DNA from: a virus
Virus record (IMG/VR): IMGVR_UViG_3300043395_001926
Coordinates: 1 to 40,743 of that record
Reading direction: 5' to 3' (one strand)
Length of the DNA: 40,743 nt
The notes under the pieces are model-generated. The model did not search any database and was not told the origin of the DNA. It was given only the letters and a program-made list of their open reading frames with translations. Shown in pieces: positions 1,763 to 39,100 of the stretch. Each line of letters opens with the position of its first letter. Position 1 is the first letter of the stretch. The position numbers were made by a program, and so were the translations under genes.

Positions 1763-2608
1763 TTATGATAATAAAGAATAATATTCTTTAAAATGTTTAA
1801 TTCTATCAGGTAGGCCAATTGTTCCACCATTTACTCTTTTTGTAATCTTAGTTACTACTAAATCACTTGCTCCTTCATCTGCAATTTTATGTAATCCGTT
1901 CTTAGAGAAGAACCATGCTGCTGATGCTAATGCGTAAGTAGATGCAACTGAATCTGGGTTTGATGGGATATCTACACCTATTGATTTACCAAATGCAGTA
2001 TAGTTTTCTTTACCTGTCAATTGTATATATCCTCTACCTCTAAACTTATATCCTTCACCACTTGCTTCGTTTCCATTACCCATTCTATTAGAGTAAACTT
2101 TATTAGCAATCTTTTGTGGGTTTCTTGCATATGCGTTTGCAATTGCTTCAGTTGGGAAATACTTTTTGAATATACCCATCAAACCTTTTGCAGAGTAGTT
2201 TAAGTTTTCTTGTGTTAAACGGAAACCACCACTTTCATGTCCACATTGTGCTAAAAAGTGTGCAACTCTCAATGGAGTGTTAATACCAAATTTAGATGCA
2301 ACTTCTGGAATTGAATCTATTACTATTTGAGGAACGTGTCCTTTTAATTTATCTAATTTTAATCCTGCAACTTGTGATGCTGGAGTTGATACTACTGGTT
2401 GTGGAGTTGGAGCAGTTGTACTACCACTTTCCATAATCTTTGCCCATGTTCCATCACCAACAATACCATCTGGAGTTAATCCATTTTTAAGTTGGAATGC
2501 TTTTACTGCTTCTTCGGTTTTAGGACCAAAGTTACCAATTGGTTCAATTCCCAATTTGGTTTGTAATAATTTAACGTTATCGTTATTATCACCTTTTTTC
2601 AATAACAT
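1763..2608 (-). CDS. endolysin: peptidoglycan-binding domain plus GH19 lysozyme/chitinase-like domain
   Basis: A 281-residue lysis enzyme. Residues 1-58 form a PG_binding_1-type domain (GDNNDNVKLLQTKLG, then TPDGIVGDGTWAKI). A Thr/Pro/Ser linker (about 61-79) follows. Residues 85-281 are GH19-like: AHFLAQCGHESGGF with the likely catalytic Glu at 125, then YKFRGRGYIQLTGKENY, the classical GH19 substrate-cleft motif. Proteins of this build cut the peptidoglycan glycan backbone. There is no signal peptide, so access to the wall needs a holin; the two-TM protein at 12614-12880 is one candidate. AGGAGA six bases before the ATG is a good ribosome-binding site. A terminator follows the gene. Confidence 0.92.
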   Translation of the reverse strand: MLLKKGDNNDNVKLLQTKLGIEPIGNFGPKTEEAVKAFQLKNGLTPDGIVGDGTWAKIMESGSTTAPTPQPVVSTPASQVAGLKLDKLKGHVPQIVIDSIPEVASKFGINTPLRVAHFLAQCGHESGGFRLTQENLNYSAKGLMGIFKKYFPTEAIANAYARNPQKIANKVYSNRMGNGNEASGEGYKFRGRGYIQLTGKENYTAFGKSIGVDIPSNPDSVASTYALASAAWFFSKNGLHKIADEGASDLVVTKITKRVNGGTIGLPDRIKHFKEYYSLLS

Positions 2609-2643: not shown

Positions 2644-2925
2644 TTATTTTACACCTTCCAAATCTTCCAATGATTGTGCAGGTGCTGCTGGTTTTACGTT
2701 ATGCCCAGGCAACATCAATGCATATTCTTTTTTCAAACGATTAAGAATTTCTGATTTAACGCGGTTAGGTAATCCTTTATGTTTAGTAGATGCGAAATCT
2801 TTAGCATCAGATTTATTCATATCTTTTGCTACTTTTGCAACTTCTGGACTTGCAGGTGTTTCACCTTTTTGTGCTGCATGAACCATACCCATAAAACGTT
2901 GTTGTGCTTTACTTTGTGCAGGCAT
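2644..2925 (-). CDS. DUF3008 family phage protein
   Basis: A 93-residue protein starting MPAQSKAQQRFMGMVHAAQK, with PASPEVAKVAKDM and KDFASTKHKGLP further on. These are the signature segments of DUF3008, a small basic protein common in T4-like phages of marine bacteria and of unknown function. The C-terminal half beyond residue 52 is helical with an Ala/Pro-rich end. GAGGAA lies upstream of the ATG. It sits between the endolysin and a run of small virion-type genes, in line with late expression. Confidence 0.85.
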   Translation of the reverse strand: MPAQSKAQQRFMGMVHAAQKGETPASPEVAKVAKDMNKSDAKDFASTKHKGLPNRVKSEILNRLKKEYALMLPGHNVKPAAPAQSLEDLEGVK

Positions 2926-3139: not shown

Positions 3140-3373
3140 TTAGTTATTGTGTTCTAAACCATATTTCATTATGGTTGCATCATCTAATAATTTACCATTG
3201 ATTGTACCCAATCTTTTACCTTTATAGTAAACTGACCAGTTACCTTGTGGAGTTGCATCCACAGTAATATGTTTTAGGTCTTTAATACTTCTATCTTGTA
3301 ATTGAATAGCATCTAAAAATTTCTCCGCTTTTGGAGTTAAACTAACTTCTGATAGAATATTTTTTAATTTCAT
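3140..3373 (-). CDS. small protein with capsid-targeting-like N-terminus
   Basis: I start this at the ATG at 3373 (77 residues), not at the ATG at 3445, which would lie inside the neighbouring membrane-protein gene. The chosen start gives MKLKNILSE, the same N-terminal pattern as three nearby genes. It ends in L-S-E, the kind of site cut by T4-type prohead protease. The rest (WSVYYKGKRLGTINGKLLDD) reads as a small beta-rich domain of unknown function. The upstream stop and this ATG are separated by four bases. Packaging in the head is an inference from the tag alone. Confidence 0.65.
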   Translation of the reverse strand: MKLKNILSEVSLTPKAEKFLDAIQLQDRSIKDLKHITVDATPQGNWSVYYKGKRLGTINGKLLDDATIMKYGLEHNN

Positions 3374-3377
3374 ATTA

Positions 3378-3596
3378 TTACTTTTTATACCAAATATTTT
3401 TTGGATTACTTGCATAGTTTCCATCAATTCTAATTTCCATTTCATCTACTATTTTACCAGCGATATCATCACGTCCACTAAAATGTAAAACTATAAAAAA
3501 TACCTGCATAGATAGGGCGATTACACACCATCCTGCGGTAAAGTAAACTAATCCTTTGACAAATAGGTCACCGATTTTTTGCTGTAAACCTTTCAT
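3378..3596 (-). CDS. small membrane protein, one transmembrane segment
   Basis: A 72-residue protein with a short polar N-terminus (MKGLQQKIGDLFVK), a long hydrophobic span at about 15-38 (GLVYFTAGWCVIALSMQVFF) and a charged C-terminal half. No family recognised. Its start is strongly marked: AAGGAG lies seven bases upstream and the TATTTATA motif lies 21 bases upstream of the ATG. That makes it the likely first gene of a late transcript reading through the DUF3008 and endolysin genes. Confidence 0.7.
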   Translation of the reverse strand: MKGLQQKIGDLFVKGLVYFTAGWCVIALSMQVFFIVLHFSGRDDIAGKIVDEMEIRIDGNYASNPKNIWYKK

Positions 3597-3617
3597 ACAA
3601 AACTCCTTATTATTTCA

Positions 3618-3625
3618 TATAAATA
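3618..3625 (-). promoter_or_regulatory. TATTTATA motif, candidate late promoter
   Basis: The minus strand reads TATTTATA, with 21 bases between the motif and the ATG at 3596. The same octamer stands 20-24 bases before four other starts in this window. Confidence 0.4.
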
Positions 3626-3653
3626 TAGAGTTTTTAAGGATTGATAAAAAATA

Positions 3654-4181
3654 TTAGTGTTTAACGTGTTGAACTCGCCATTTAACGTTTTTTCCACGCA
3701 ACATTTGTTTTGCTGCATCTACGTTTTTTTGGGAGTCATCTGCGAAGTAAATATCATCGTAACCTTTATTATCAATCATATCTTCAATCCAATCTGCTTT
3801 ATCTTTTGGATTGTTTGATGCTAAGGCAATTACGTTGATTTTGTTTGAATTGATACCAATATCTCTTAGGTATCTTCTAATTGGGTCTGCTGCTGCTCTT
3901 GCAGTTAGAATATAAACTGGTTCTTTTGAACTCTGAACCACTTTTCTTAATACACTTGTAATCTTTTTAATTTCTTGAGGTTGTTTTACTTGTTCGAAAT
4001 CAGTAAAATCAAATACATCACCTGGTCTTTCATTATAGATTGCGTATTGTGCAGGTGTTAATTTACTCTTTTTACCATCTTTATGGGTAATGTATATAAA
4101 TGAGGTTGTTTTGACAAGTGTATCATCAAAATCAAATATTCTTAAATTCTTACTTTCGGTAAATAAATTTCTACTAATCAT
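3654..4181 (-). CDS. HAD-superfamily phosphatase with capsid-targeting-like N-terminus
   Basis: A 175-residue HAD hydrolase. Motif I is FDFDDTL with the nucleophile D17 and acid D19, motif II is YILTAR with T93, a Lys near 126-128 (NPKDKADW) serves as motif III, and motif IV is YFADDS with D148/D149. All catalytic positions are present, so it should be an active Mg-dependent phosphatase or nucleotidase; the substrate is unknown. The first nine residues, MISRNLFTE, look like a separate tag ahead of the HAD core and resemble the L-x-E tags of neighbouring genes (here F-T-E). This could mean delivery into the head. It lies among virion-type genes. Confidence 0.85.
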   Translation of the reverse strand: MISRNLFTESKNLRIFDFDDTLVKTTSFIYITHKDGKKSKLTPAQYAIYNERPGDVFDFTDFEQVKQPQEIKKITSVLRKVVQSSKEPVYILTARAAADPIRRYLRDIGINSNKINVIALASNNPKDKADWIEDMIDNKGYDDIYFADDSQKNVDAAKQMLRGKNVKWRVQHVKH

Positions 4182-4192
4182 ATTTTTATTTT

Positions 4193-5014
4193 TTACACCA
4201 AAGCATCTAACTTTTTTTGTGTCTTTTGTAATTCTGTTTTTGCACTTTTAATATCTTGCTCTTTCCATTCAATATTTCGTTTTTTCCACCAAGTAATAGC
4301 ACGTTCGGTTTCTTCTTTGTTATATTTTTCCATTTCCGATTTACTGCCAAATCGTTCCTTTTGTTCATCGCCCAATTCATCCCATTTCAAAGGTTTTAAT
4401 TGAGCAGCAAACCAACCACCAGTAGAACTTGTTCCATAACCATCAGCACTAACTATTTTGATGATTTCTTTATCACTCATTTTAGAGTTTGTATCGATTA
4501 CTTTCTGATTATTATCAATTCGTTGTTTAAGAATTTCAATATCTTTTTGTAATTTCTCACCTTTACTCAATTTGGTCAACTCTGCTTTTAACTTTTGAGT
4601 TTCAGCAGTTTCACCTGTATATGGTAGGGTTGTTTTGGTTAAATAACGAAAGTGTAATTTTTGAATGTTGTATCCACCTGCATAGATTACTTCGGTGTTG
4701 AATGGGTATTTAGTTCCATCTCTTTCAACAACACATTTAATTTGTAATGAACCCTTATTTGAGTTCTTTACCTCAACCTGACTCATTTTATCAGTAGGTT
4801 GGGTGTATTTTTCTAATGCTTTAACCATATCATATTTCAATACGATTTCGGTATAATACGCATCATAATCACTAAACACTCTATCTTCTTTCTTATATCG
4901 TTGTTTAGTATTTTCAATAATATCGGCAATTAAGGGTTTTAACTCCGTTAATAATCGATTAATTAATGGGTTTTTAGATTGTCCCTCGTTCAATAAATCT
5001 TTTAATTTTATCAT
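4193..5014 (-). CDS. coiled-coil protein with capsid-targeting-like N-terminus
   Basis: A 273-residue protein starting MIKLKDLLNE, the clearest example of the shared tag ending in L-N-E. The middle contains a possible beta domain (about 75-140) and the parts from about 140-180 and 230-273 are Lys/Glu-rich helices likely to form coiled coils. No known domain recognised. It has its own promoter-like sequence upstream (5035-5066), predicting a leader of about 17 bases. An internal virion protein is the best guess from tag, size and context. Confidence 0.7.
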   Translation of the reverse strand: MIKLKDLLNEGQSKNPLINRLLTELKPLIADIIENTKQRYKKEDRVFSDYDAYYTEIVLKYDMVKALEKYTQPTDKMSQVEVKNSNKGSLQIKCVVERDGTKYPFNTEVIYAGGYNIQKLHFRYLTKTTLPYTGETAETQKLKAELTKLSKGEKLQKDIEILKQRIDNNQKVIDTNSKMSDKEIIKIVSADGYGTSSTGGWFAAQLKPLKWDELGDEQKERFGSKSEMEKYNKEETERAITWWKKRNIEWKEQDIKSAKTELQKTQKKLDALV

Positions 5015-5034
5015 ATCTATCTCTTATTACTTAG

Positions 5035-5066
5035 CTAATATACGATAAATTATCGAATTTACCAAA
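5035..5066 (-). promoter_or_regulatory. Bacteroidota-type promoter (TTTG-N20-TATATTAG)
   Basis: On the minus strand TTTGG at 5066-5062 and CGTATATTAG at 5044-5035 span 32 bases, the same geometry as four other sites. The -7 box has A in place of one T (TATATTAG). Predicted start lies about 17 bases before the ATG at 5014. Confidence 0.6.
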
Positions 5067-5070
5067 TTTT

Positions 5071-5385
5071 TTACCCGTTAATTAAAGGTTTTTTTGTTCT
5101 AGTTTTCTTATGTAATTCTTCGTTTTCTTTGGTAAGATATTCTACCTTAACGGATAGGGCTGCAACCTCTTTTGTAAGGGCTAAAACCATAGTACGAAGG
5201 TCATCCTTTTCCTTTGAAGATGCCTCTAATAAAGCCTCTAATTTAGAAATTCTATCTTTACAATCATGTCTGATGAAATCTTCATCTCTTTCTTTATGGT
5301 CTGCTCTCTTTTCGTAATATCTCCAAGCACCTGTTCCACCTAATACTGTTACGGCTGTTATTAAAACTGAATAAATGTTTTCCAT
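5071..5385 (-). CDS. membrane-anchored coiled-coil protein
   Basis: The ATG at 5385 is chosen because it overlaps the upstream stop (TAATG); the in-frame TTG at 5409 would lie inside the previous gene. The 104 residues start with a transmembrane segment (MENIYSVLITAVTVLGGTGA). A charged stretch (YYEKRADHKERDEDF) and a long heptad-rich helix (about 45-95: ISKLEALLEAS through VKVEYLTKENEEL) follow. Type II membrane anchor plus coiled coil is the build of inner-membrane spanins and of some phage membrane organisers. No family assigned. Confidence 0.75.
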   Translation of the reverse strand: MENIYSVLITAVTVLGGTGAWRYYEKRADHKERDEDFIRHDCKDRISKLEALLEASSKEKDDLRTMVLALTKEVAALSVKVEYLTKENEELHKKTRTKKPLING

Positions 5386-5945
5386 TATCGTTTCCCCATT
5401 ACATCCCAAGCAAAATCTATCATCTTTTTCATGCCGGAATTTATATATTTAGATTTATTTGTAGATGATAATGCATCATAAGTTTTTAAAACAGCATTAG
5501 CAGATTGAACATCTACCATTATTACTTTACCTGTCTTTTGGTCTTTTACTTTTGATGCAGAATGATTCTTTACTATATCATTAAGAACTTTAAGAACTTG
5601 AACATCTCCTCTTGGAGTTTCCACATCTGATTCATTTACTGATTCACTTTTGTATTCGTGATAGTTAGATGCAGCCTGATTGATGTAGTTTTCAGAATTA
5701 GTAATATGGTCTTGTATCCAAGCAGGAATATCCTTTTCGTTTTCACCGATTTTAGATTTTAATTCCGTTGCTGCTTTGATAATAGAATCTAATTGATTTT
5801 GAGCCATAGATACTTCGTGGTCTTCACCTTCACCTTCATTCATAGGTTTGAAAGCATTTACATACGGATTTGAGTAAACTTTACCAAGTTCAACTTGTTT
5901 ACCATTCCAATCCATTTTTGACATTACATTCTTTAAACTTATCAT
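5385..5945 (-). CDS. modular virion-type protein with ESVNE linker
   Basis: A 186-residue protein starting MISLKNVMSK, a variant of the neighbouring tag with Lys in place of Glu. Module one, about 45-96 (EVSMAQNQLDSIIKAATELK, ending NYINQAASNYHEY), is a helical segment I recognise from other marine phage proteins. It is followed by a linker SESVNES at about 99-105, then module two, about 112-186 (LKVLNDIVKN ... NAVLKTYDALSSTNKSKYIN). The same ES[VI]NE linker occurs twice in the gene at 6348-7103. ATGA overlap with the upstream gene and TAATG overlap with the downstream gene show tight coupling. Function unknown. Confidence 0.75.
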   Translation of the reverse strand: MISLKNVMSKMDWNGKQVELGKVYSNPYVNAFKPMNEGEGEDHEVSMAQNQLDSIIKAATELKSKIGENEKDIPAWIQDHITNSENYINQAASNYHEYKSESVNESDVETPRGDVQVLKVLNDIVKNHSASKVKDQKTGKVIMVDVQSANAVLKTYDALSSTNKSKYINSGMKKMIDFAWDVMGKR

Positions 5946-6346
5946 TTTTCGTTCGCCTTTTTAATACTTTGTTGTTTTTTATAATTCAAAAGAGTTTGTG
6001 AAACTGCTTTCAATTTACCTTGTTGTAGTTTGAATGTATCTGATGTTTTATCTTTCATATCATTCATTCTATCTTTGATAGCTTTAATTCTATCAGTATA
6101 TGCTTTAATTCGTTCGGTGGGTGTATTTTTATGATATTCATTTACATCACCACAACCGATTGCTTTATAAAACTTATCATAATTAAATATAATGTTTTCG
6201 TCTTTAAATTGCTGAACCATATTATCTGCAATTTCTTTACGATTATCCATATCTTTCACTTGATTCAGTATATCAATTATACCATCAACCATCTGATATT
6301 CGTTATTATCTAACTTTTCTTTTAATATGGATTTTAGTTTTATCAT
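5942..6346 (-). CDS. helical protein with capsid-targeting-like N-terminus
   Basis: A 134-residue protein starting MIKLKSILKE, a near copy of the start of the gene at 4193-5014 and ending in L-K-E. The remainder is almost entirely helical and rich in Lys/Asp/Asn (NRKEIADNMVQQFKDENIIF, then coiled-coil-like segments to the end). It overlaps the next gene by ATGA and is separated from the previous stop by one base. A small internal head protein is a reasonable guess. Nothing suggests an enzyme. Confidence 0.7.
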   Translation of the reverse strand: MIKLKSILKEKLDNNEYQMVDGIIDILNQVKDMDNRKEIADNMVQQFKDENIIFNYDKFYKAIGCGDVNEYHKNTPTERIKAYTDRIKAIKDRMNDMKDKTSDTFKLQQGKLKAVSQTLLNYKKQQSIKKANEK

Positions 6347-6347
6347 A

Positions 6348-7103
6348 CTATTTCTTTTCGTTCCAAACTACTTGTCCACCACCATCTTCGATGTGAATTT
6401 TAGCTTTTGGATTTTCTCTTCTCATTGCTTCAAAGTGTGCAGGCAAAAGATTCTTATCTTTAATACTATTCTTTTGTGCTACTACTCTGTTATTCTCAAT
6501 ACCAACTAATGACCAAGGACCAGAACCACCTTTCTTCACATCACTCATCATTCTTGACCATGATGTAGTTGCTTCGTTGATTGATTCACCTTGATATTCT
6601 GCATCTTTGTCAAGATTTAAAATGTATTTATCTTCAATATTTTGTAGATTTCTTCTCCACATTTTTAATTGCTCAGTACCCTTTTTCATTGCAGGTAATA
6701 ATGCTGCTTTCTTCTTCGGGTCATCTGTTCCAAAATACTCATCTTTCATTTTAAGTTGAGCATTTACTAACTCAGCAACTTTCTTTTGAACTGCTAAATA
6801 CTTAACATACATCTTATTGATACCAGCTTCATTTACTGATTCACCAATTCTCAATTCATCTTCAATTTGAGTAATTTCATTATAATCCATATCTTTAAGA
6901 TAATCGATTATTTTGTTACGATTAGCATTTGGATTTTTACAAACTGCAGATGCTACTTTCTTTTTAGTAAAAGAACCGCCATGGTCATACACTCTTAAAA
7001 TGTTTTTGAAATGGACATCGTTTACCCCCATTTCACTTAGTGATTTTTTAAATTCTTCTCTAACAATTCCTCTTACTACTTCTTTAATTTTACTCTCGTT
7101 CAT
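6348..7103 (-). CDS. three-module virion-type protein with ES[VI]NEA linkers
   Basis: A 251-residue protein built of three different segments. Residues 1-86 begin MNESKIKEVVRGIVREEFKK with L-S-E at 22-24. GESVNEA at 87-93 leads into a helical coiled-coil-like module (about 94-170). GESINEA at 172-178 leads into a short domain (GPWSLVGIENNRVVAQ ... AKIHIEDGGGQVVWNEK). The two linkers are near-identical and also match the SESVNES linker in the gene at 5385-5945. T4-type head protease cuts after [LI]-x-E-like sites, so I/V-N-E could be processing points, but this is inference. It has a TATTTATA motif 21 bases before its ATG. Confidence 0.75.
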   Translation of the reverse strand: MNESKIKEVVRGIVREEFKKSLSEMGVNDVHFKNILRVYDHGGSFTKKKVASAVCKNPNANRNKIIDYLKDMDYNEITQIEDELRIGESVNEAGINKMYVKYLAVQKKVAELVNAQLKMKDEYFGTDDPKKKAALLPAMKKGTEQLKMWRRNLQNIEDKYILNLDKDAEYQGESINEATTSWSRMMSDVKKGGSGPWSLVGIENNRVVAQKNSIKDKNLLPAHFEAMRRENPKAKIHIEDGGGQVVWNEKK

Positions 7104-8486: not shown

Positions 8487-10022
8487 TTAAAATGAAACTT
8501 TTGAACCAATTTGGAAATTATTTAATAACTTAAATTGAGGTTCAAATCCCATATTTGCTTTATACGCAAAGTTAAATCCAAATCGTTTACTTATTTTATA
8601 ATCAAATGAAGCACCTAACATTGATGATGGTACTCTTGTAACTATTGTTCCACCTGTAACTGAATTATATCCCAAAGGTGAATTCATTACGAATACTTGT
8701 GGTGATACTGTTAGTTTAGGAGAGTATTGATATGGTTTCATCCAGAATAATACTACCGATGTTGAAAATGATGATTGTAAGGTTTGAGTTGCATCTGGCA
8801 TTAATAATGTAATAAGTCCAATATTTGCACCATACGTTCCAAACTTAGGATGTGGTTTAATAAATGTATAACCCAACATTCCCATATACGTTCCTTTAAG
8901 ATATGCAGTGGTTACTGAATAACTATGTAAGGAGTGTAACTTACCATCTTCTAATCTCATTTGTGTCATACCGCCCGATAAAGCGAATTGGTCTAAGGTA
9001 CTCCATATCAATGTTGATGCAGAATATGATTTATCACCCATTAGAGAGGATTTAGAAACCCCCAAAGACAACATTGCAGAGTATCTACCATCTGCACCTT
9101 CCGTGCCTGCTAAATCGGATGCTAATAACATAGGATTAGTATTTACTGCTTTCTTCTTTTCTTCTTTTTTCTTCTCGTCCTTTTTCTCTTCTTTCTTTTC
9201 TTCCTTTTTTTCCTCTTTCTTTTCTTCTTTTTTATCTTCGGATTTTTTCTCTTCTTTCTTTTCTTCACTCTTACTTTCAGATTTCTTTTCCTCTGATTTA
9301 CTTTCAGATTTAGATTCACTTTTTGTTTCAGATTTAGTTTCTGATTTAGATTCTGACGAAGATGATGAACTACTTTCAGATTTAGTTTCAGTTTTTGTTT
9401 CCGATGACGATGATGAAGATGATGAAGATGATGATGAACTACCACCAGATGTTGAACTGCCACCAGATGTTGATGTAGATGATGAACTACTATTTGTAGA
9501 TGGTGGAGTTGAAGATGATGCTGCAGATGAACTCGCTGAACTTGCAGATGAAGATGCTGCCGATGAAGCAGAAGAACTTGCAGCAGATGATGCGGAAGAT
9601 GATGCTGCCGAACTTGCGGCAGATGATGCTGCCGAACTTGCTGCGGAACTTGCAGCAGATGATGCTGCGGTTGATGCTGCTTGGGTTGCTGCTGCCGTTG
9701 CTGCTTGTGATGCTGCTTGAGTTACTGCTTGTTGGACAGTTTGTTGAACTACTACGTTAGTTGGACACCCCATAGTAGAATAAGCCAAATAGGTTGCGTT
9801 TAACCATAATTGAACCGCACCACTTTGAACTTCTAATGGAGTAAATACTTTAACTTGGTCATAGAATGAAACTACCGCGTTACCATTAACCATTGTAGTT
9901 GTTGCAGTTTTTATTTGTCCACTACATTTATCTACGAACGTTTGAGTATAAGTTTGTGCACTTACCCTTTGAGTAACTACACATATAATCATTACTATTA
10001 AACTTACTAACCATTTTTTCAT
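8487..10022 (-). CDS. exported outer-membrane beta-barrel protein with long Ala/Ser and Glu/Lys spacer
   Basis: A 511-residue protein. A signal peptide ends VSAQ (about residue 23). Residues 24-95 form a small domain with two Cys (DKCSGQIKTATTTM ... STMGCP). Low-complexity blocks follow in order: Ala/Ser (about 103-173), Ser/Gly/Thr (173-206), ETK/SESK (207-250) and E-E-K-K repeats (250-290). Residues 291-511 have amphipathic strands typical of a transmembrane beta-barrel and end in Phe (QIGSKVSF), the usual outer-membrane signature. The E-E-K-K part should form a single rigid helix. It probably sits in the outer membrane with a periplasm-reaching N-terminus; the function is unknown. It lies beside envelope and lysis genes. 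Confidence 0.75.
   Translation of the reverse strand: MKKWLVSLIVMIICVVTQRVSAQTYTQTFVDKCSGQIKTATTTMVNGNAVVSFYDQVKVFTPLEVQSGAVQLWLNATYLAYSTMGCPTNVVVQQTVQQAVTQAASQAATAAATQAASTAASSAASSAASSAASSAASSAASSSASSAASSSASSAASSSASSASSSAASSSTPPSTNSSSSSTSTSGGSSTSGGSSSSSSSSSSSSSETKTETKSESSSSSSSESKSETKSETKSESKSESKSEEKKSESKSEEKKEEKKSEDKKEEKKEEKKEEKKEEKKDEKKKEEKKKAVNTNPMLLASDLAGTEGADGRYSAMLSLGVSKSSLMGDKSYSASTLIWSTLDQFALSGGMTQMRLEDGKLHSLHSYSVTTAYLKGTYMGMLGYTFIKPHPKFGTYGANIGLITLLMPDATQTLQSSFSTSVVLFWMKPYQYSPKLTVSPQVFVMNSPLGYNSVTGGTIVTRVPSSMLGASFDYKISKRFGFNFAYKANMGFEPQFKLLNNFQIGSKVSF
9152..9725 (-). repeat. low-complexity coding repeat (Ala/Ser then Glu/Lys codons)
   Basis: Short-period tandem repetition inside the beta-barrel gene: GCA/TCA-type codons in the N-terminal half of the spacer and GAA/AAG-type codons in the other half. 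Slippage in such DNA would change spacer length without breaking the frame only in steps of three. Open frames on the plus strand here are by-products of the repeat. Confidence 0.85.
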
Positions 10023-32753: not shown

Positions 32754-33611
32754 TTATTGCCAGATTGGACAAATTTTTCTTGCTTTGAATTCACACCAAT
32801 CACAAGATTTTGATTTATTTGTAGGGAAATCAGTTTGTTTTACCTTACCTTCTTCATCATAGACAGTATCTACAAACTCCATAAAACCCTTCCAAGCATT
32901 GTTTACTGATGGTTTACCATTTGGTGGTACAAACTTAGAAATACGTGGGATAGGGAAATCTGCTTTTTCACTAATCTTACGTTTTAGGATTTGATATTCT
33001 ACTTTGATTTTGTCTAAGGGAACGTTGTATTTTTCTGAATAGAATTTCTTATACAACAACATTTGTGATGTTTTTACTTTATCTGATTTTTGGGAATCAG
33101 ACCAACCTCTAGTTGATGTTTTTAAATCGATGATGATAATATCACCCGATGATATATCTTTTAATACAATATCAATAAACCCAACAAAATTAACGCCAGG
33201 TCTAACCTCTGCGTTTAGTGGTAATTCAATTGATACTAATTCAAATCCACTTTTAGTATAAAGTTTATCTAATTTAGATTTAAAATATTGTAGAATTTGT
33301 CTACCATCTCCAAAGAATTCTTCTAATTCTTCTTTTTCACATGGAGTACCTTCTGTCATTTTGGCTTTTTCATTAGTAAAATGTTCTACTAACTTATCCT
33401 TTAACATAGTTTCCAAATCTAATTCTAATGCTTGTTTCTTTGTAACTCCGTACATAACGGAAAGAAAATGTTGAATGGTTTCGTGCATTGCCGAACCAAA
33501 TATAGTATGAATGTTTGCAGATGATTCACCTAATTTATCAATATAACTTAGTTTGAATTGTTGTTGACAACTTGTCCACATTCCATACTGACTATAACTT
33601 ACTCTTGCCAT
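32754..33611 (-). CDS. PD-(D/E)XK nuclease of Cas4/RecB type with iron-sulfur cysteines
   Basis: A 285-residue exonuclease-type protein. GSAMHETIQHFL gives the motif I His, NFVGFIDIVLKDI the motif II Asp, and IIIIDLKTSTRGW the D-x-K catalytic pair, followed by QMLLYKKFY (motif IV Q-x-x-x-Y). Cys 15 (WTSCQQQF) plus C-D-W-C and a third Cys in the C-terminal CEFKARKICPIW give the four-Cys pattern of an Fe-S cluster, as in Cas4, AddB and Dna2. Expected role: processing of DNA ends during phage replication/recombination. Its own promoter lies 16 bases upstream of the predicted leader. Confidence 0.92.
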   Translation of the reverse strand: MARVSYSQYGMWTSCQQQFKLSYIDKLGESSANIHTIFGSAMHETIQHFLSVMYGVTKKQALELDLETMLKDKLVEHFTNEKAKMTEGTPCEKEELEEFFGDGRQILQYFKSKLDKLYTKSGFELVSIELPLNAEVRPGVNFVGFIDIVLKDISSGDIIIIDLKTSTRGWSDSQKSDKVKTSQMLLYKKFYSEKYNVPLDKIKVEYQILKRKISEKADFPIPRISKFVPPNGKPSVNNAWKGFMEFVDTVYDEEGKVKQTDFPTNKSKSCDWCEFKARKICPIWQ

Positions 33612-33662: not shown

Positions 33663-34112
33663 TTAAATTTTGAGTTTTAATTTAGTAATTTCCTTAGATT
33701 CTACTCCGTATTTTTCACAAATATACTTGATATGTTCTCTACCTTCCTTAGTAGAATACAATATTTCCAAATATTCTTCGGCTTGAAACTTAGAACATTG
33801 ATAATCCTTCGTTATTAGGTTTACCAACCAACTATCATATACATCATCTTTTTTACCCTTTACATAACGTAAATAATATTTTCCTTTTGGTAAAATACCA
33901 ATTAAAGCTAAATACAATTGTTTAGGTTCTAATTTTTCGGTATATGGTTGGAGTTCTGAAAGGAATTCTATCCAATCAGAATTCATAGATAAAAAACGAT
34001 GAACCATATAATTTGACCATGTCTTTTTATCTGATTCATCTAATTTATCCCAATACTTTGGGTCTTGTTCCGAAGTAATTGCCTTAATGTGGTCAAATAA
34101 GGTTTTTGCCAT
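33663..34112 (-). CDS. clamp loader small subunit, T4 gp62-like
   Basis: A 149-residue protein. Two segments match T4 gp62 by pattern. KTWSNYMVHRFLSMNSDWIE parallels the gp62 helix around Y-S-K-F-M-V-E-N-A-L-S. LALIGILPKGKYYLRYVKGK parallels the gp62 M-A-A-V-P-R-G-K-R-Y-G-K-W segment. It is shorter than gp62 (187). In T4, one gp62 with four gp44 loads the gp45 sliding clamp. The gp44-like gene is three genes upstream, supporting the call. No enzymatic motifs are expected for this subunit, so the match rests on sequence pattern and context. Confidence 0.75.
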   Translation of the reverse strand: MAKTLFDHIKAITSEQDPKYWDKLDESDKKTWSNYMVHRFLSMNSDWIEFLSELQPYTEKLEPKQLYLALIGILPKGKYYLRYVKGKKDDVYDSWLVNLITKDYQCSKFQAEEYLEILYSTKEGREHIKYICEKYGVESKEITKLKLKI

Positions 34113-34380: not shown

Positions 34381-34686
34381 CTATTTTATAATCATTTCTA
34401 AATCCATTTCTCTACATAAGTAGTATTCGGTTTCTTCTAATTTAATTTTACGAAGACTCATACCACCGGTTGGTAACATTACTTTATCACCTACTTGTAC
34501 TTCCATAGGAATTTTTGTTCCACTTTGGGTATAAATACCATTACCAACTGAAACTACGATTCCAAATTGAGTATCACCTTGTTTAACCGAATCAGGTATG
34601 ATAATTCCACCTACGGTCTTTTCTTGTGTTTCTACCTGAATTAGGACTCTATCTCCTAATGGTTTTGCTAATTGTTCGTTTGCCAT
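34381..34686 (-). CDS. groES: GroES-type co-chaperonin (T4 gp31 counterpart)
   Basis: A 101-residue Cpn10: KPLGDRVLIQV is the first strand, KTVGGIIIPDSVKQ the mobile loop that contacts GroEL through I-I-I-P, and KVMLPTGGMSLRKIKLEETEYYLCREMDLEMI the closing strands. Host GroES is about 95 residues; T4 gp31 is 111 and replaces host GroES for folding of the major capsid protein. No GroEL is present in this window, so it must work with host GroEL or one encoded elsewhere. It lies among replication genes. Confidence 0.95.
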   Translation of the reverse strand: MANEQLAKPLGDRVLIQVETQEKTVGGIIIPDSVKQGDTQFGIVVSVGNGIYTQSGTKIPMEVQVGDKVMLPTGGMSLRKIKLEETEYYLCREMDLEMIIK

Positions 34687-34961: not shown

Positions 34962-35507
34962 TTAAGATATATTCAATATTTTTAATATATCATCTACGGT
35001 CGTTTCCCCAACCTCTACACTATAATATGATATATTATTTTTTATTAATACGTTCTCAATTTCATTATCTAAGCGGATTGATTCTGAAAGGGTTTGATAA
35101 CGTTCTTTTTCATTATAACCCCCTTCCGTTCGTTTTAACACTATATTTATCGAATCATACTGATTATGTATATCTAATACCATTTTATCAAAAGACTCCC
35201 CATATAAGGTTGCTGGGTATTCTAAACCAGTATAAGCAGAACGATAAACCAACGATAATAGAATGGGTGAATCTAAAATGATATATTCAACCTTTCCGAA
35301 ACTTTTAACAATTCCTCTATGTTGATTTGCTAAGACATATAATTGGTCTCTGATTGCAGAGTGATTTTCATCCCAAGCCAGTTGTTTTGGAAATTCATAG
35401 GGATTATCACAATTTATATGTTTCTTTTTAAGTTTATAAGTAAGACCGGAAGCAATAGAGGATTTACCAATCCCCGGCCCACCAAATAAATTTACAATTT
35501 TACTCAT
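34962..35507 (-). CDS. P-loop kinase/ATPase (AAA_28-like)
   Basis: A 181-residue P-loop protein. NLFGGPGIGKSSIASGL is Walker A, EYIILDSPILLSLVY Walker B with Asp followed by S-P, and EKERYQTLSESIRLDNEIEN a later LID-like helix. The layout is close to small phage AAA_28/thymidylate-kinase-like NTPases. A nucleotide kinase or an ATPase switch are both possible. TAATG overlap with the upstream clamp loader gene is strong evidence of co-expression. Confidence 0.82.
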   Translation of the reverse strand: MSKIVNLFGGPGIGKSSIASGLTYKLKKKHINCDNPYEFPKQLAWDENHSAIRDQLYVLANQHRGIVKSFGKVEYIILDSPILLSLVYRSAYTGLEYPATLYGESFDKMVLDIHNQYDSINIVLKRTEGGYNEKERYQTLSESIRLDNEIENVLIKNNISYYSVEVGETTVDDILKILNIS

Positions 35508-36454
35508 TAAATAATTCCGTTAATTGCTATTAAAGTTGCCATAAAAGAAATTTCTTTATCAACCACTAATGCATCCTTATGTTGTCCTTGTGCAAGTTCT
35601 AAAATAACTGCAGATGTATTACCTTGTGCGTACTCATCTACTTTTTCATAAAGATATGAATACAATTCAGTAAAATCTTGTACACGAGAATCTGCAACTG
35701 CTTGTCTTAAATTAACATAACGATTGCGTTTATCATCTTTTGATTTAAGAATTTCTACAACTTTGATTTTTATATCAGAATCTAAAATAGCACCAACATC
35801 TACCTTTAATACTCCTTTTGCAGAATTTAACTGACAAGTATTTATTATTTTACGAATATCTGGATATGATGCATCAATAATTGGAACTAATTCTTTTGGT
35901 TCAAACGATACATTTTCAGCTGATAATATTTTACTGATTTGTATCGCTACATCTTTCTTTGTAGGTGGAACAATTTGAAATGTTTGACATCTACTTTGAA
36001 TTGGTTCGATTACTTTCTGAACGTAGTTACAAGTCAAAATGAAACGACAATGTTTACTAAATGTTTCCATTAAGTTTCTTAACATAGCTTGTGCATCAGG
36101 TGTCATATAATCAAACTCATCTAATATAATAACCTTCAAATCTTTGAAACCAATTGTAGATGCAAATGATTTTACTTTGTTACGAATAATATCAATACCT
36201 CTCTCATCAGATGCGTTGATAATAATATGGTCACAATTAATAGTATTTACAATTAATTTAGCAAGTGTAGTTTTACCAGTACCTGCTCTTCCGAATAATA
36301 AAAGATGTGGAATATCGGAATTTTCAATATAACTTTGAACTTTTGTTTTTAAATGTTCATTACCAACATACTCTTCCAATTTCTTTGGACGATATTTTTC
36401 AACCCATAAGGTATTATTAGATTCTTCTTTTACTATTTCTTCAAAAAATGCCAT
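35507..36454 (-). CDS. clamp loader large subunit, T4 gp44-like (RFC/DnaX-type AAA+)
   Basis: Starting at the ATG at 36454 gives 315 residues (T4 gp44: 319); the open frame further upstream only reads through the promoter. Features: [20 protein letters not shown] (N-terminal clamp-loader signature), Walker A GRAGTGKT at 55-62, Walker B with D112-E113-x-D115, [20 protein letters not shown] with the S-R-C sensor, and [20 protein letters not shown] from the sensor 2 region. With the gp62-like protein it should open and load the sliding clamp for the phage DNA polymerase. Promoter and terminator stand directly upstream. Confidence 0.94.
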
Positions 36455-36476
36455 ATTATTTATTTTATTTATTTTA

Positions 36477-36508
36477 CAAAGATACAAAATTATTTTGTTA
36501 TTACCAAA
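36477..36508 (-). promoter_or_regulatory. Bacteroidota-type promoter of the clamp loader operon
   Basis: On the minus strand TTTG at 36508-36505 and TATCTTTG at 36484-36477, with 20 bases between; a full match to the TTTG / TAnnTTTG consensus. Predicted leader about 19 bases. The -33 box lies within the T-tract of the receptor gene terminator. Confidence 0.8.
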
Positions 36509-36511
36509 CAA

Positions 36512-36537
36512 AAATGGGAGATTTTTTTCTCCCATTT
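36512..36537 (-). terminator. Rho-independent terminator after the TonB-dependent receptor gene
   Basis: On the minus strand AAATGGGAGA / TCTCCCATTT forms a perfect 10-bp stem with a six-A loop, followed by TTGTTT. It lies 20 bases after the receptor stop codon. Core GGGAGA is shared with the terminator at 1731-1755. Confidence 0.88.
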
Positions 36538-36556: not shown

Positions 36557-39100
36557 TTAGAAACTAACTTTCAAACTAAAGTTTTGGTTAATTCCCCATC
36601 CTTTGAAACCACTACCTAATGTACCTACTGCAGTACCACCGGCATCGTTTGCTTCAACCCAATAGTTTTGGTCGAATAAGTTATACACTTGATATTGTGC
36701 ATATGATTCATAACCTAACAATTTGAATTTATATCCAACTCTTGCATCAGTTACACCGAATGCAGGTAATTGATATGGTTGAGTTGTTACTGCTGGGTTT
36801 GTACGAGATGTTGGGTCATAGTATGCAAAATACTTATCGTTGTAAGTATAAGTTGCTGATACATCTAAACCTTTTGTTACTTGGTAACGTGTGTACACAC
36901 CTAATTGTGTTTGAGGTTGGTCACCTACATATAATCCATCTGAATAGATATTTGTTTTAACATCAACATTTTTAATGTCATCTCTAATAACTGCTGATGC
37001 ATTACCTTTCCATTTCCAATCACCGAATGATGCAAATCCATTAACATCTAACTTAGAAGTAACTTTAACTGCTGCTTCAAATTCTAAACCTTGATGTAAT
37101 GCACCTTGGCCAGTAATTAATGCTCTATATTGAGTACCATCTGCGTTTGTTAATAATGGAGATGTTAGAGAACGATTTTGGAAATCGGTATAATATGCGT
37201 TTGCTTTGAAACGGAATGCTCTACTACGGAAACCATATCCCACTTCATATGCAGTTGCTTCTTCATTCTTAATATTTGAGTTCACCGCATTACCACTATT
37301 GATTGCAGTAGCAGTTGCGGGTGATGCTCCGTTAAAAATGAATGAAAAATAAGGTGCTCTACTATATTGACCAGCGTTTACAAAAACATTGTTCTTTTCA
37401 TCTAAATTATAGTTGAAACCTGCTTTATAGTTATAACCTGTAATGTTTACTTTTTCAGAAAACTTTTCAGTATGAGTTGCGTTATATCTATCTACACGTT
37501 GATATTGTGTTTGAGAAATTGCACCTTGCACAAATGCTGATAATTTATCTTTTGAATATTCCAATTGTCCGAATGTACCTTCGTAATCAACTAAACCATC
37601 ATTATCATAAGCAACACGATTGTTTTCAGGAGTAATTTTTGTGATATCAATATAATCACTTGCATTCGGGTCAACAGTTGCGTTTGGAGTGAAGATATCT
37701 TTATAATAAGAACCACCGATTAAATCTCTCATTTCACGGAAGTGAGTTCCTTTATAAGTTCTAGCATCAACACCCAATGTTAAGTTTAAGTTATCAGTTA
37801 AATCGTGATTTAAAGTTGATAACACACCATACCAAGTGTGGTTGTTGATTGAGTTACGAATACCATATTTTGAACCAGTTGTAGATGCTGCGTTAATTGA
37901 AACTTGTGGGTCTAATACTAAATGTCCTTCTGCATCTCTAACAATTGTAGAAGCATAAGAACCGATTGCACCACTACCACCACCATGTCCGATTGATGCG
38001 TATGCTGATGTATTCAATTGAGTCTTTGGAGAAATTGTCCAATAGTGATTCAAACTGAAAATTGGTTTATGATAATAGTTTGTTGCGATATTCTTTTGTT
38101 CACCATTAATAGTGTAAATATCTTTGTTATATTTCAAACCATATTTTTCATATTCAGCAGGAGTTAAACGAGATGTTCTTTGTCCGTGTTCTTGTGGAGC
38201 ACCGATTGCTGTGAACTGAATCTTATGTTTTAAACCTAAATCTTTAGCGTAAGATAAGAAATAAGAATATGCGTTTGTATAAGTTCCATCAATATACCCA
38301 TTACCTGCAGTTTTACTACCTACGAAAGAAAATGCTCCGTATTTAGTATTACCAGTTGATAATGATAATGTAGTTTTACTCATACCATAATCAGTTAATG
38401 ATTGTTGGATAGACCCACCCTTTTCAGCATCAGTAGTTTTAGTGATAATATTCATTGTACCACCAACTGATTGAATTGCTAATTTAGATGCCCCTAAACC
38501 TCTTTGAACTTGCATTTGTTTTAACGCATCACCGATACCTGCCCAGTTTGAGAAATAAACCCAACCTGATTCCATATCATTTACCGGAACACCATTGATT
38601 AAGATTGCAACGTTCTTTTGGTCAAATCCTCTAATGTTGATACGAGAATCACCAGTACCACCACCACCTTTTGTAATAAATGCAGATGGAGTGATTTTTA
38701 CTAATTCAGGTAATTCTTGTGAACCTAAGTTCTCAACTGCAAATTTTGTTGTAATTGATGAAATAGCTGCTGGAGTTTTTCTATCAATACCATAAGATGC
38801 AATTACAGCCACTTCTTTCAAACCGATTGAAGTTGATTGTAATTCAATTGTAACACCATCTTTTGCAGGCACTTCTTTTGTTGTATAACCTACAAATGAT
38901 ATTTTTAAATTATCACCTTGTTTTGCTGTTTTAAAATCAAATGTACCATCTAACCCAGATGTTACACCGCCTTTAGCAGTACTAATTGTAGCACCTGCCA
39001 GTACCTCTTTCGTTTGTGCATCAACAACTTTACCTTTAATTTGTCCAAATGAAACAAATGAGGTAAGTGTAATACCCAAAAGTAATAATACTTTTTTCAT
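36557..39100 (-). CDS. TonB-dependent outer-membrane receptor, SusC/RagA-like start
   Basis: A complete 847-residue receptor. Signal peptide ends VSFGQ (about residue 20). A CarboxypepD_reg-like domain (about 21-95: IKGKVVDAQTKEVLAGATIS, then ISFVGYTTKEV) is followed by the plug (about 105-225: ITPSAFITKGGGGTGDSRIN, then INGVPVNDMESGWVYFSN and SVGGTMNIITK). A 22-strand-type barrel follows to the C-terminal Phe (NFSLKVSF). Such proteins import iron complexes, vitamins or glycans with TonB energy. Both ends look intact, so this should be functional. A TonB box is not obvious. No neighbouring SusD gene is present. Finding it in a phage is unusual. Confidence 0.93.
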   Translation of the reverse strand: MKKVLLLLGITLTSFVSFGQIKGKVVDAQTKEVLAGATISTAKGGVTSGLDGTFDFKTAKQGDNLKISFVGYTTKEVPAKDGVTIELQSTSIGLKEVAVIASYGIDRKTPAAISSITTKFAVENLGSQELPELVKITPSAFITKGGGGTGDSRINIRGFDQKNVAILINGVPVNDMESGWVYFSNWAGIGDALKQMQVQRGLGASKLAIQSVGGTMNIITKTTDAEKGGSIQQSLTDYGMSKTTLSLSTGNTKYGAFSFVGSKTAGNGYIDGTYTNAYSYFLSYAKDLGLKHKIQFTAIGAPQEHGQRTSRLTPAEYEKYGLKYNKDIYTINGEQKNIATNYYHKPIFSLNHYWTISPKTQLNTSAYASIGHGGGSGAIGSYASTIVRDAEGHLVLDPQVSINAASTTGSKYGIRNSINNHTWYGVLSTLNHDLTDNLNLTLGVDARTYKGTHFREMRDLIGGSYYKDIFTPNATVDPNASDYIDITKITPENNRVAYDNDGLVDYEGTFGQLEYSKDKLSAFVQGAISQTQYQRVDRYNATHTEKFSEKVNITGYNYKAGFNYNLDEKNNVFVNAGQYSRAPYFSFIFNGASPATATAINSGNAVNSNIKNEEATAYEVGYGFRSRAFRFKANAYYTDFQNRSLTSPLLTNADGTQYRALITGQGALHQGLEFEAAVKVTSKLDVNGFASFGDWKWKGNASAVIRDDIKNVDVKTNIYSDGLYVGDQPQTQLGVYTRYQVTKGLDVSATYTYNDKYFAYYDPTSRTNPAVTTQPYQLPAFGVTDARVGYKFKLLGYESYAQYQVYNLFDQNYWVEANDAGGTAVGTLGSGFKGWGINQNFSLKVSF

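Follow-up and report, generated by a model that had tools for sequence, protein, structure and literature searches.

The DNA analysed here (the window), a fragment of a virus record, has 40,743 bases and a G+C content of 31%; its open reading frames were called with a simple script, not with a trained gene finder. It carries replication genes of the T4 type, namely clamp loader subunits at 35507-36535 and 33663-34112 and an exonuclease at 32754-33611, and a DNA search with its first 8.3 kb found no near-identical DNA among named phages. The clamp loader adjoins a complete TonB-dependent outer-membrane receptor (plug and barrel, 36557-39100, Pfam 1e-21) with a secretion signal-like start, which is unusual in a phage, and a phage-encoded GroES-like co-chaperonin (Cpn10) is located at 34381-34686 (4.5e-24). 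The genes considered below form an island on the minus strand with the following features, where arrows mark known or predicted points of cleavage.

1763..2608, minus strand: endolysin, flanking the putative cargo island, likewise in the relative G002
2644..2925, minus strand: DUF3008 protein (PF11450), 93 aa, Pfam 2e-7
3140..3373, minus strand: tagged protein, 77 aa; tag MKLKNILSE at 3347-3373, kept in relatives
3654..4181, minus strand: tagged HAD-family phosphatase, 175 aa; tag MISRNLFTE at 4155-4181
4193..5014, minus strand: tagged protein, fold not matched, 273 aa; tag MIKLKDLLNE at 4985-5014
5385..5945, minus strand: two-module protein; leader type C at residues 1-37 (5835-5945, ending KPMNE)
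5942..6346, minus strand: tagged protein, 134 aa; tag MIKLKSILKE at 6317-6346
6348..7103, minus strand: three-module polyprotein; leader type B, MNESKIKEVVRGIVREEFKKSLSE, at 7032-7103
6828-7031, 6573-6827 and 6351-6572, minus strand: modules of 6348-7103, from comparison with relatives
6828..6842, minus strand: predicted gp21-type site ESVNE↓A, residues 88-92 of 6348-7103
6573..6587, minus strand: predicted gp21-type site ESINE↓A, residues 173-177 of 6348-7103

Directly upstream of the island, and transcribed in the same direction, lies a gene for a low-complexity protein (8487-10022) that contains extended (AASS)n and (KKEE)n tracts and whose start resembles a signal peptide. Three genes at 607-1675, encoding an APS kinase-like protein, a 125-aa protein without assignment (MKKYALYIGRWQNW) and a DUF2061 membrane protein, adjoin the island in the window as well as in the relatives G002, G003 and L005. 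A search of IMG/VR with the tagged protein 4193-5014 yielded eight relatives, with contigs that include sequences of 287, 289, 195 and 176 kb.

Four distinct genes within 3140-6346, all on the minus strand, open with a tag of 9-10 residues (MKLKNILSE at 3373, MISRNLFTE at 4181, MIKLKDLLNE at 5014 and MIKLKSILKE at 6346), at the positions reported in the initial annotation, and the bodies behind the tags mostly fall in different families, in agreement with its description of these proteins as otherwise unrelated. The first of these starts is an in-frame ATG 24 codons into the longest open reading frame (3140-3445), and the relatives G003 240655 and L005 7557 begin exactly at the equivalent ATG. 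A fifth start that had been added to the set, MISLKNVMSK at 5945, is indeed present; it lacks the terminal E, and the earliest plausible site in its protein is at residue 37 (NPYVNAFKPMNE↓GEGE), and it is therefore a different, longer leader. The list of five had overlooked a sixth member, 6348-7103, which also has a longer leader, and the description of the set had missed three longer leader types and the multi-module polyproteins with repeated internal sites. Each protein appears to be headed by a leader of type A (the short tag, MIKLKxLLxE), B (a longer amphipathic helix), C (ending NPYxxAF...E) or D (the DUF3008 domain).

The tag pattern is found at 4 of the 57 gene starts in the window compared with 1 of 202 internal methionines (Fisher p 0.009), and the tagged starts cluster within 7 of the 57 genes (p 0.003). 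The pattern originally proposed misses MISRNLFTE, which is one residue too short for it. The suggested search for further tagged starts was productive when a generalised pattern was used: the window and nine related sequences contain the tag at 44 of 1507 gene starts and at 1 of 4778 internal methionines (p ~1e-26, uncorrected for relatedness and overstated, as are the other p-values, because related sequences are not independent samples). Among 207 further loci the counts are 73 of 3262 starts and 7 of 11237 internal methionines, and G006 contains up to seven consecutive tagged genes. The short leader is thus common to otherwise unrelated proteins, as in T4-type cargo with a capsid-targeting sequence (CTS), and the tags end in the gp21 motif [LI]-x-E, the exception at P3 being the FTE of the HAD protein.

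The tag of 4193-5014 is conserved in all close relatives, with M1, I2, L4, L8 and E10 invariant in the alignment, and is retained in family members that are just ~44-50% identical overall to the window protein. Such persistence speaks against the notion that a single leader was recently duplicated, or spread by gene conversion, to give the shared starts with no selection acting on the peptide. Five tags in G006 are nearly identical, as that notion would predict, but the tags differ at synonymous codon positions, within G006 as well, which indicates that they are not recent DNA copies and that the peptide is conserved, not the DNA. Gene conversion of the tags was rejected on these codon differences, and we regard an origin by unselected copying in general as extremely improbable. 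Residues 110-127 of 4193-5014 (IYAGGYNIQKLHFR) recur in otherwise different virus contigs (L179-L203), which hints at a common small motif or fold.

The body of the HAD-family protein also occurs behind different leaders, namely MIKLKDLLVE in G005, L008 and L009 and a 43-aa leader ending FESVNE in L112. This protein matches PHROG 415 (polynucleotide kinase, 2.5e-8), and the HAD motifs DFDDT, LTAR, KADW and ADDS, recognised by eye, correspond to the expected DxDxT, T/S, K and DD; a PDB sequence search gave no significant match, and tblastn against named phages gave one distant match. Pfam and PHROG matches of tagged proteins below the cut-off were weak and were treated as chance. The homologue of 5942-6346 in G005 (123311) has the tag MIKLKTILNE and adjoins head genes.

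Two window proteins (5385-5945 and 6348-7103) and dozens of proteins in the relatives are strings of modules joined by ESVNE-type sites. The modules are small and mostly basic, with up to seven per protein in the longest strings (L267 11178-12992 and L091 9790-11793). The internal ESVNE site of 5385-5945 lies at 5631-5645, and the last module, which follows it, is homologous to the last module of a 407-aa polyprotein in G002 that is headed by the same DUF3008 leader domain as the protein at 2644-2925. The DUF3008 domain in the window ends with LEDLEGVK and a stop codon; G002 continues with LEDLEGVNE↓GVIS. The layout of 6348-7103, for which tblastn against named phages gave no match, is leader ...SLSE↓MGVNDVHFK...ESVNE↓AGINKMYVK...ESINE↓ATTSW. 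Its second module is a free 90-aa protein in L009 with the start MIKLNDLIKE↓AGIPKMYVK, and sits behind NENVNE in L001. Module order is permuted in G002 83864, where this second module of the window protein comes first, preceded by a leader of type B that ends SLSE, and is followed by the MGVND module, which stands after LTE.

When proteins were cut into modules at tags and E[SGN]x?[VILM]NE sites, 64 module families with at least two members were obtained. Ten of these are found both at the protein start or behind a tag and behind an internal site, about 30 of the 64 have at least two different upstream partners, and the content of one and the same locus differs strongly between close relatives. 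Module, leader and cut site thus appear interchangeable, so that the cargo set could be reshuffled by recombination. The pelagiphage HTVC008M, a T4-like outgroup, contains no ES[VI]NE and just scattered weak tag matches, which indicates that this polyprotein grammar is not general to T4-like phages.

The internal sites stand out in several comparisons. In the first set of relatives we counted 29 instances of ES[VI]NE and at most 4 (median 0) of any of 59 scrambles of the motif; in the further loci there are 77, compared with at most 10 for scrambles. In a separate test that makes no use of the site motif, we located mosaic boundaries, defined as positions where two proteins become homologous, internally, at different offsets. 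Such boundaries lie near [VIL]NE in 242 of 1686 cases, compared with 88 ± 9 when positions are drawn at random from those proteins; among scrambled motifs, E[VIL]N alone attains the upper limit of its random range (34 versus a maximum of 34), the others remaining inside theirs. The residues before the MxxNDxH module are E at P1 and one of L, V, I and M at P3 in 15 of 15 distinct contexts, with most other positions varying, and the AGxPKMYVK module has E at P1 in 9 of 12 contexts, two of the three exceptions having KE four residues further upstream; neither set of counts is independent, because the contexts are related by descent. P3 of the internal sites is mostly V, whereas the T4 motif has L or I, and this counts against cleavage by a gp21-type protease. 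One could also suppose that ESVNE-type stretches are mere flexible linkers and that the tag, a short amphipathic peptide, targets something other than the prohead, such as a membrane, the phage nucleus or degradation. The conserved linker positions are P1 Glu and a hydrophobic P3, however, scrambles of the same composition are rare, and the tag is found on genes beside gp21 and resembles the propeptide of T4 gp24, all of which makes this explanation very unlikely.

Structure prediction is consistent with the placement of internal sites in linkers, at least for 6348-7103. The AlphaFold2 model of this protein contains confident folded blocks at residues 30-83 and 97-168, and ESVNE (88-92) and ESINE (173-177) lie in lower-confidence stretches that join or follow the blocks. 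The third module is of low confidence, and the pTM of 0.37 indicates that the folded blocks have no fixed mutual placement. Residues 1-15 of the 4193-5014 model, which include the tag, have pLDDT < 50 and are predicted to be disordered. Neither model had a significant match in the PDB; the top matches, PI3K subunits with E-values > 0.05 and low TM-scores, were taken as chance similarity of long helices. The module families have a median pI of 9.2, whereas that of the relatives' proteomes is 5.9, as would suit proteins packaged together with DNA.

The initial annotation interpreted the tag as a signal for capsid targeting and gp21 cleavage, which presupposes a prohead protease. No match to one was found in the window, a fragment that was searched without a positive control, but each of the four large relatives (≥176 kb) has matches to gp21 (PF03420) and gp23 (PF07068) above the cut-off. 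Their gp21 retains the His and Ser columns of the T4 protease, their gp23 contains LLDE↓AT (LLDE↓TT in one) placed like FLTE↓AE in T4, and their head genes are ordered as in T4 (terminase, portal, small core genes, gp21, scaffold, gp23). Tagged genes are located directly around gp21 in G002, G003, G005 and G006, with starts such as MIKLTNIIKE, MKLKNLLNE and MIRLSKIVNE in G002, MIRLKDLLKE in G006, and similar ones in G003 and G005. T4 gp21 is described as cleaving after L/I-X-E (PMC9026906). The head-gene region of three of the four large relatives also includes a gene for ribosomal protein S21, which is likewise encoded by freshwater Bacteroidetes phages of up to 331 kb (PMC9723584), and a Bacteroidetes host is therefore likely for the lineage of the window.

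The protease and gp23 of the relatives, the tags beside gp21, the [LI]-x-E ends and the gp24-like shape of the tags are strong indirect evidence for capsid targeting and gp21 cutting of the tagged proteins, although the original account of this process was incomplete. The leader would place each protein in the prohead core beside the gp22/gp21 scaffold. During maturation the gp21 homologue would cleave after [LIVM]-x-E and remove the leader, and cuts at ESVNE/ESINE-type linkers would release small proteins, two to seven per polyprotein, that fold independently and are mostly basic. The freed modules would remain in the head with the DNA and be delivered on infection.

The same cleavage could serve a different end. 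The tagged proteins and polyproteins might be prohead core or DNA-condensing structural proteins that are cut by gp21 and act inside the head, in size control or charge neutralisation, and are not injected effectors. The basic module families would suit such a role, several members lie beside gp21, where T4 has the core proteins 67 and 68, and T4 core proteins are reported to be cleaved into many fragments (PMC9026906). On the other hand, the cargo includes an enzyme of the HAD family that retains its motifs, folded domains and not scaffold-like coils are predicted for at least two modules, and the cargo at one locus varies strongly among close relatives, a pattern that fits an arms race better than a structural function. 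We consider a purely structural role unlikely, though less so than the other alternatives discussed above.

These results lead us to propose that the island of this large T4-like lake phage quite probably encodes capsid-targeted cargo that gp21 divides into individual proteins and that is delivered along with the DNA. Packaging and injection with the DNA are suggested by analogy with T4, and the delivered proteins may counter host defence or take over the host; Pfam and PHROG searches detected no defence or host-takeover function in most modules. We also lean, with less assurance, towards the wider notion that interchangeable cargo polyproteins diced by the prohead protease are widespread in large freshwater T4-like phages, providing a grammar for swapping counter-defence proteins in which one gene can yield up to seven effectors. 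If so, the T4 internal-protein system would be extended from a few tagged proteins to a modular, fast-changing cargo supply, and a sequence rule (leader plus [LIVM]-x-E sites) would predict head-packaged proteins from raw genomes. The 64 module families, mostly without known function, would become candidate injected anti-defence or host-takeover proteins, and the use of phage heads to deliver proteins could draw on the leaders and cut sites.

The tag alone represents a known type of system; for module strings exchanged at prohead-protease sites, our surveys of the open-access literature on polyprotein cargo, DUF3008 and CTS (subscription papers and preprints being outside their scope) found no description of the system. 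In common with T4 IPI-III, Alt and gp24, unrelated proteins carry an N-terminal peptide of ~10 residues ending in [LI]-x-E, and a gp21-type protease is present, here in the genomes of relatives. The likeness to IPI-III drawn in the initial annotation holds for length and end, but with little identity the comparison in sequence is loose: the T4 internal proteins start MKTYQEFIAE↓A, and the closest match in shape to the tags described here is the gp24 propeptide MAKINELLRE↓ST. T4 ipII and ipIII adjoin the lysozyme gene e, and the island in the window is flanked by an endolysin. Unlike the T4 internal proteins, the cargo described here uses several leader types, its tagged genes can stand as many as seven in a row (G006), and some of its members are multi-module polyproteins in which internal ESVNE sites recur; T4 Alt is described as the sole one known to be cut at both ends (ITE-6 and LTE-619; PMC5694885).

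Large phages such as phiKZ and SPN3US likewise have many head-internal proteins cleaved after a short motif ending in E. The phiKZ motif is given as S/A-X-E and the propeptides of giant phages as mostly long, and the accessible text of these sources describes no exchange of modules at the sites (PMC5694885, PMC9026906). The nearest concept to the module strings is that of polyvalent proteins, which have 2 to 15 domains per chain; packaging and delivery along with the DNA are predicted for many of them, and their authors liken them to polyproteins (Iyer et al. 2017, PMC5512222). They share with the proteins described here the presence of several different domains per chain (up to seven modules in our data), but depend on an embedded peptidase and large enzymatic domains, whereas the sites found here suit a separate gp21, and Pfam searches of ten polyproteins found no peptidase domain or known polyvalent-protein enzymatic domain.

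DUF3008 proteins of the cyanophages S-SCSM1 (L285, 6001-6210) and S-ShM2 (L284, 5995-6465) end in or continue into TFKEFLEYIE and TYEEFVSE, much like TYQEFIAE in the T4 internal-protein leader, which suggests a wider role for DUF3008 as a leader domain associated with the head. Virion proteins of S-SCSM1 were identified by mass spectrometry, an NMNAT enzyme among them (PMC9602691). The NMNAT gene starts with MKSFLQFLKE↓AAES, and a DUF3008 protein of 69 aa from this phage carries a virion-protein annotation; both observations, made in a different lineage, support the view that the short tag and the DUF3008 leader mark virion cargo.
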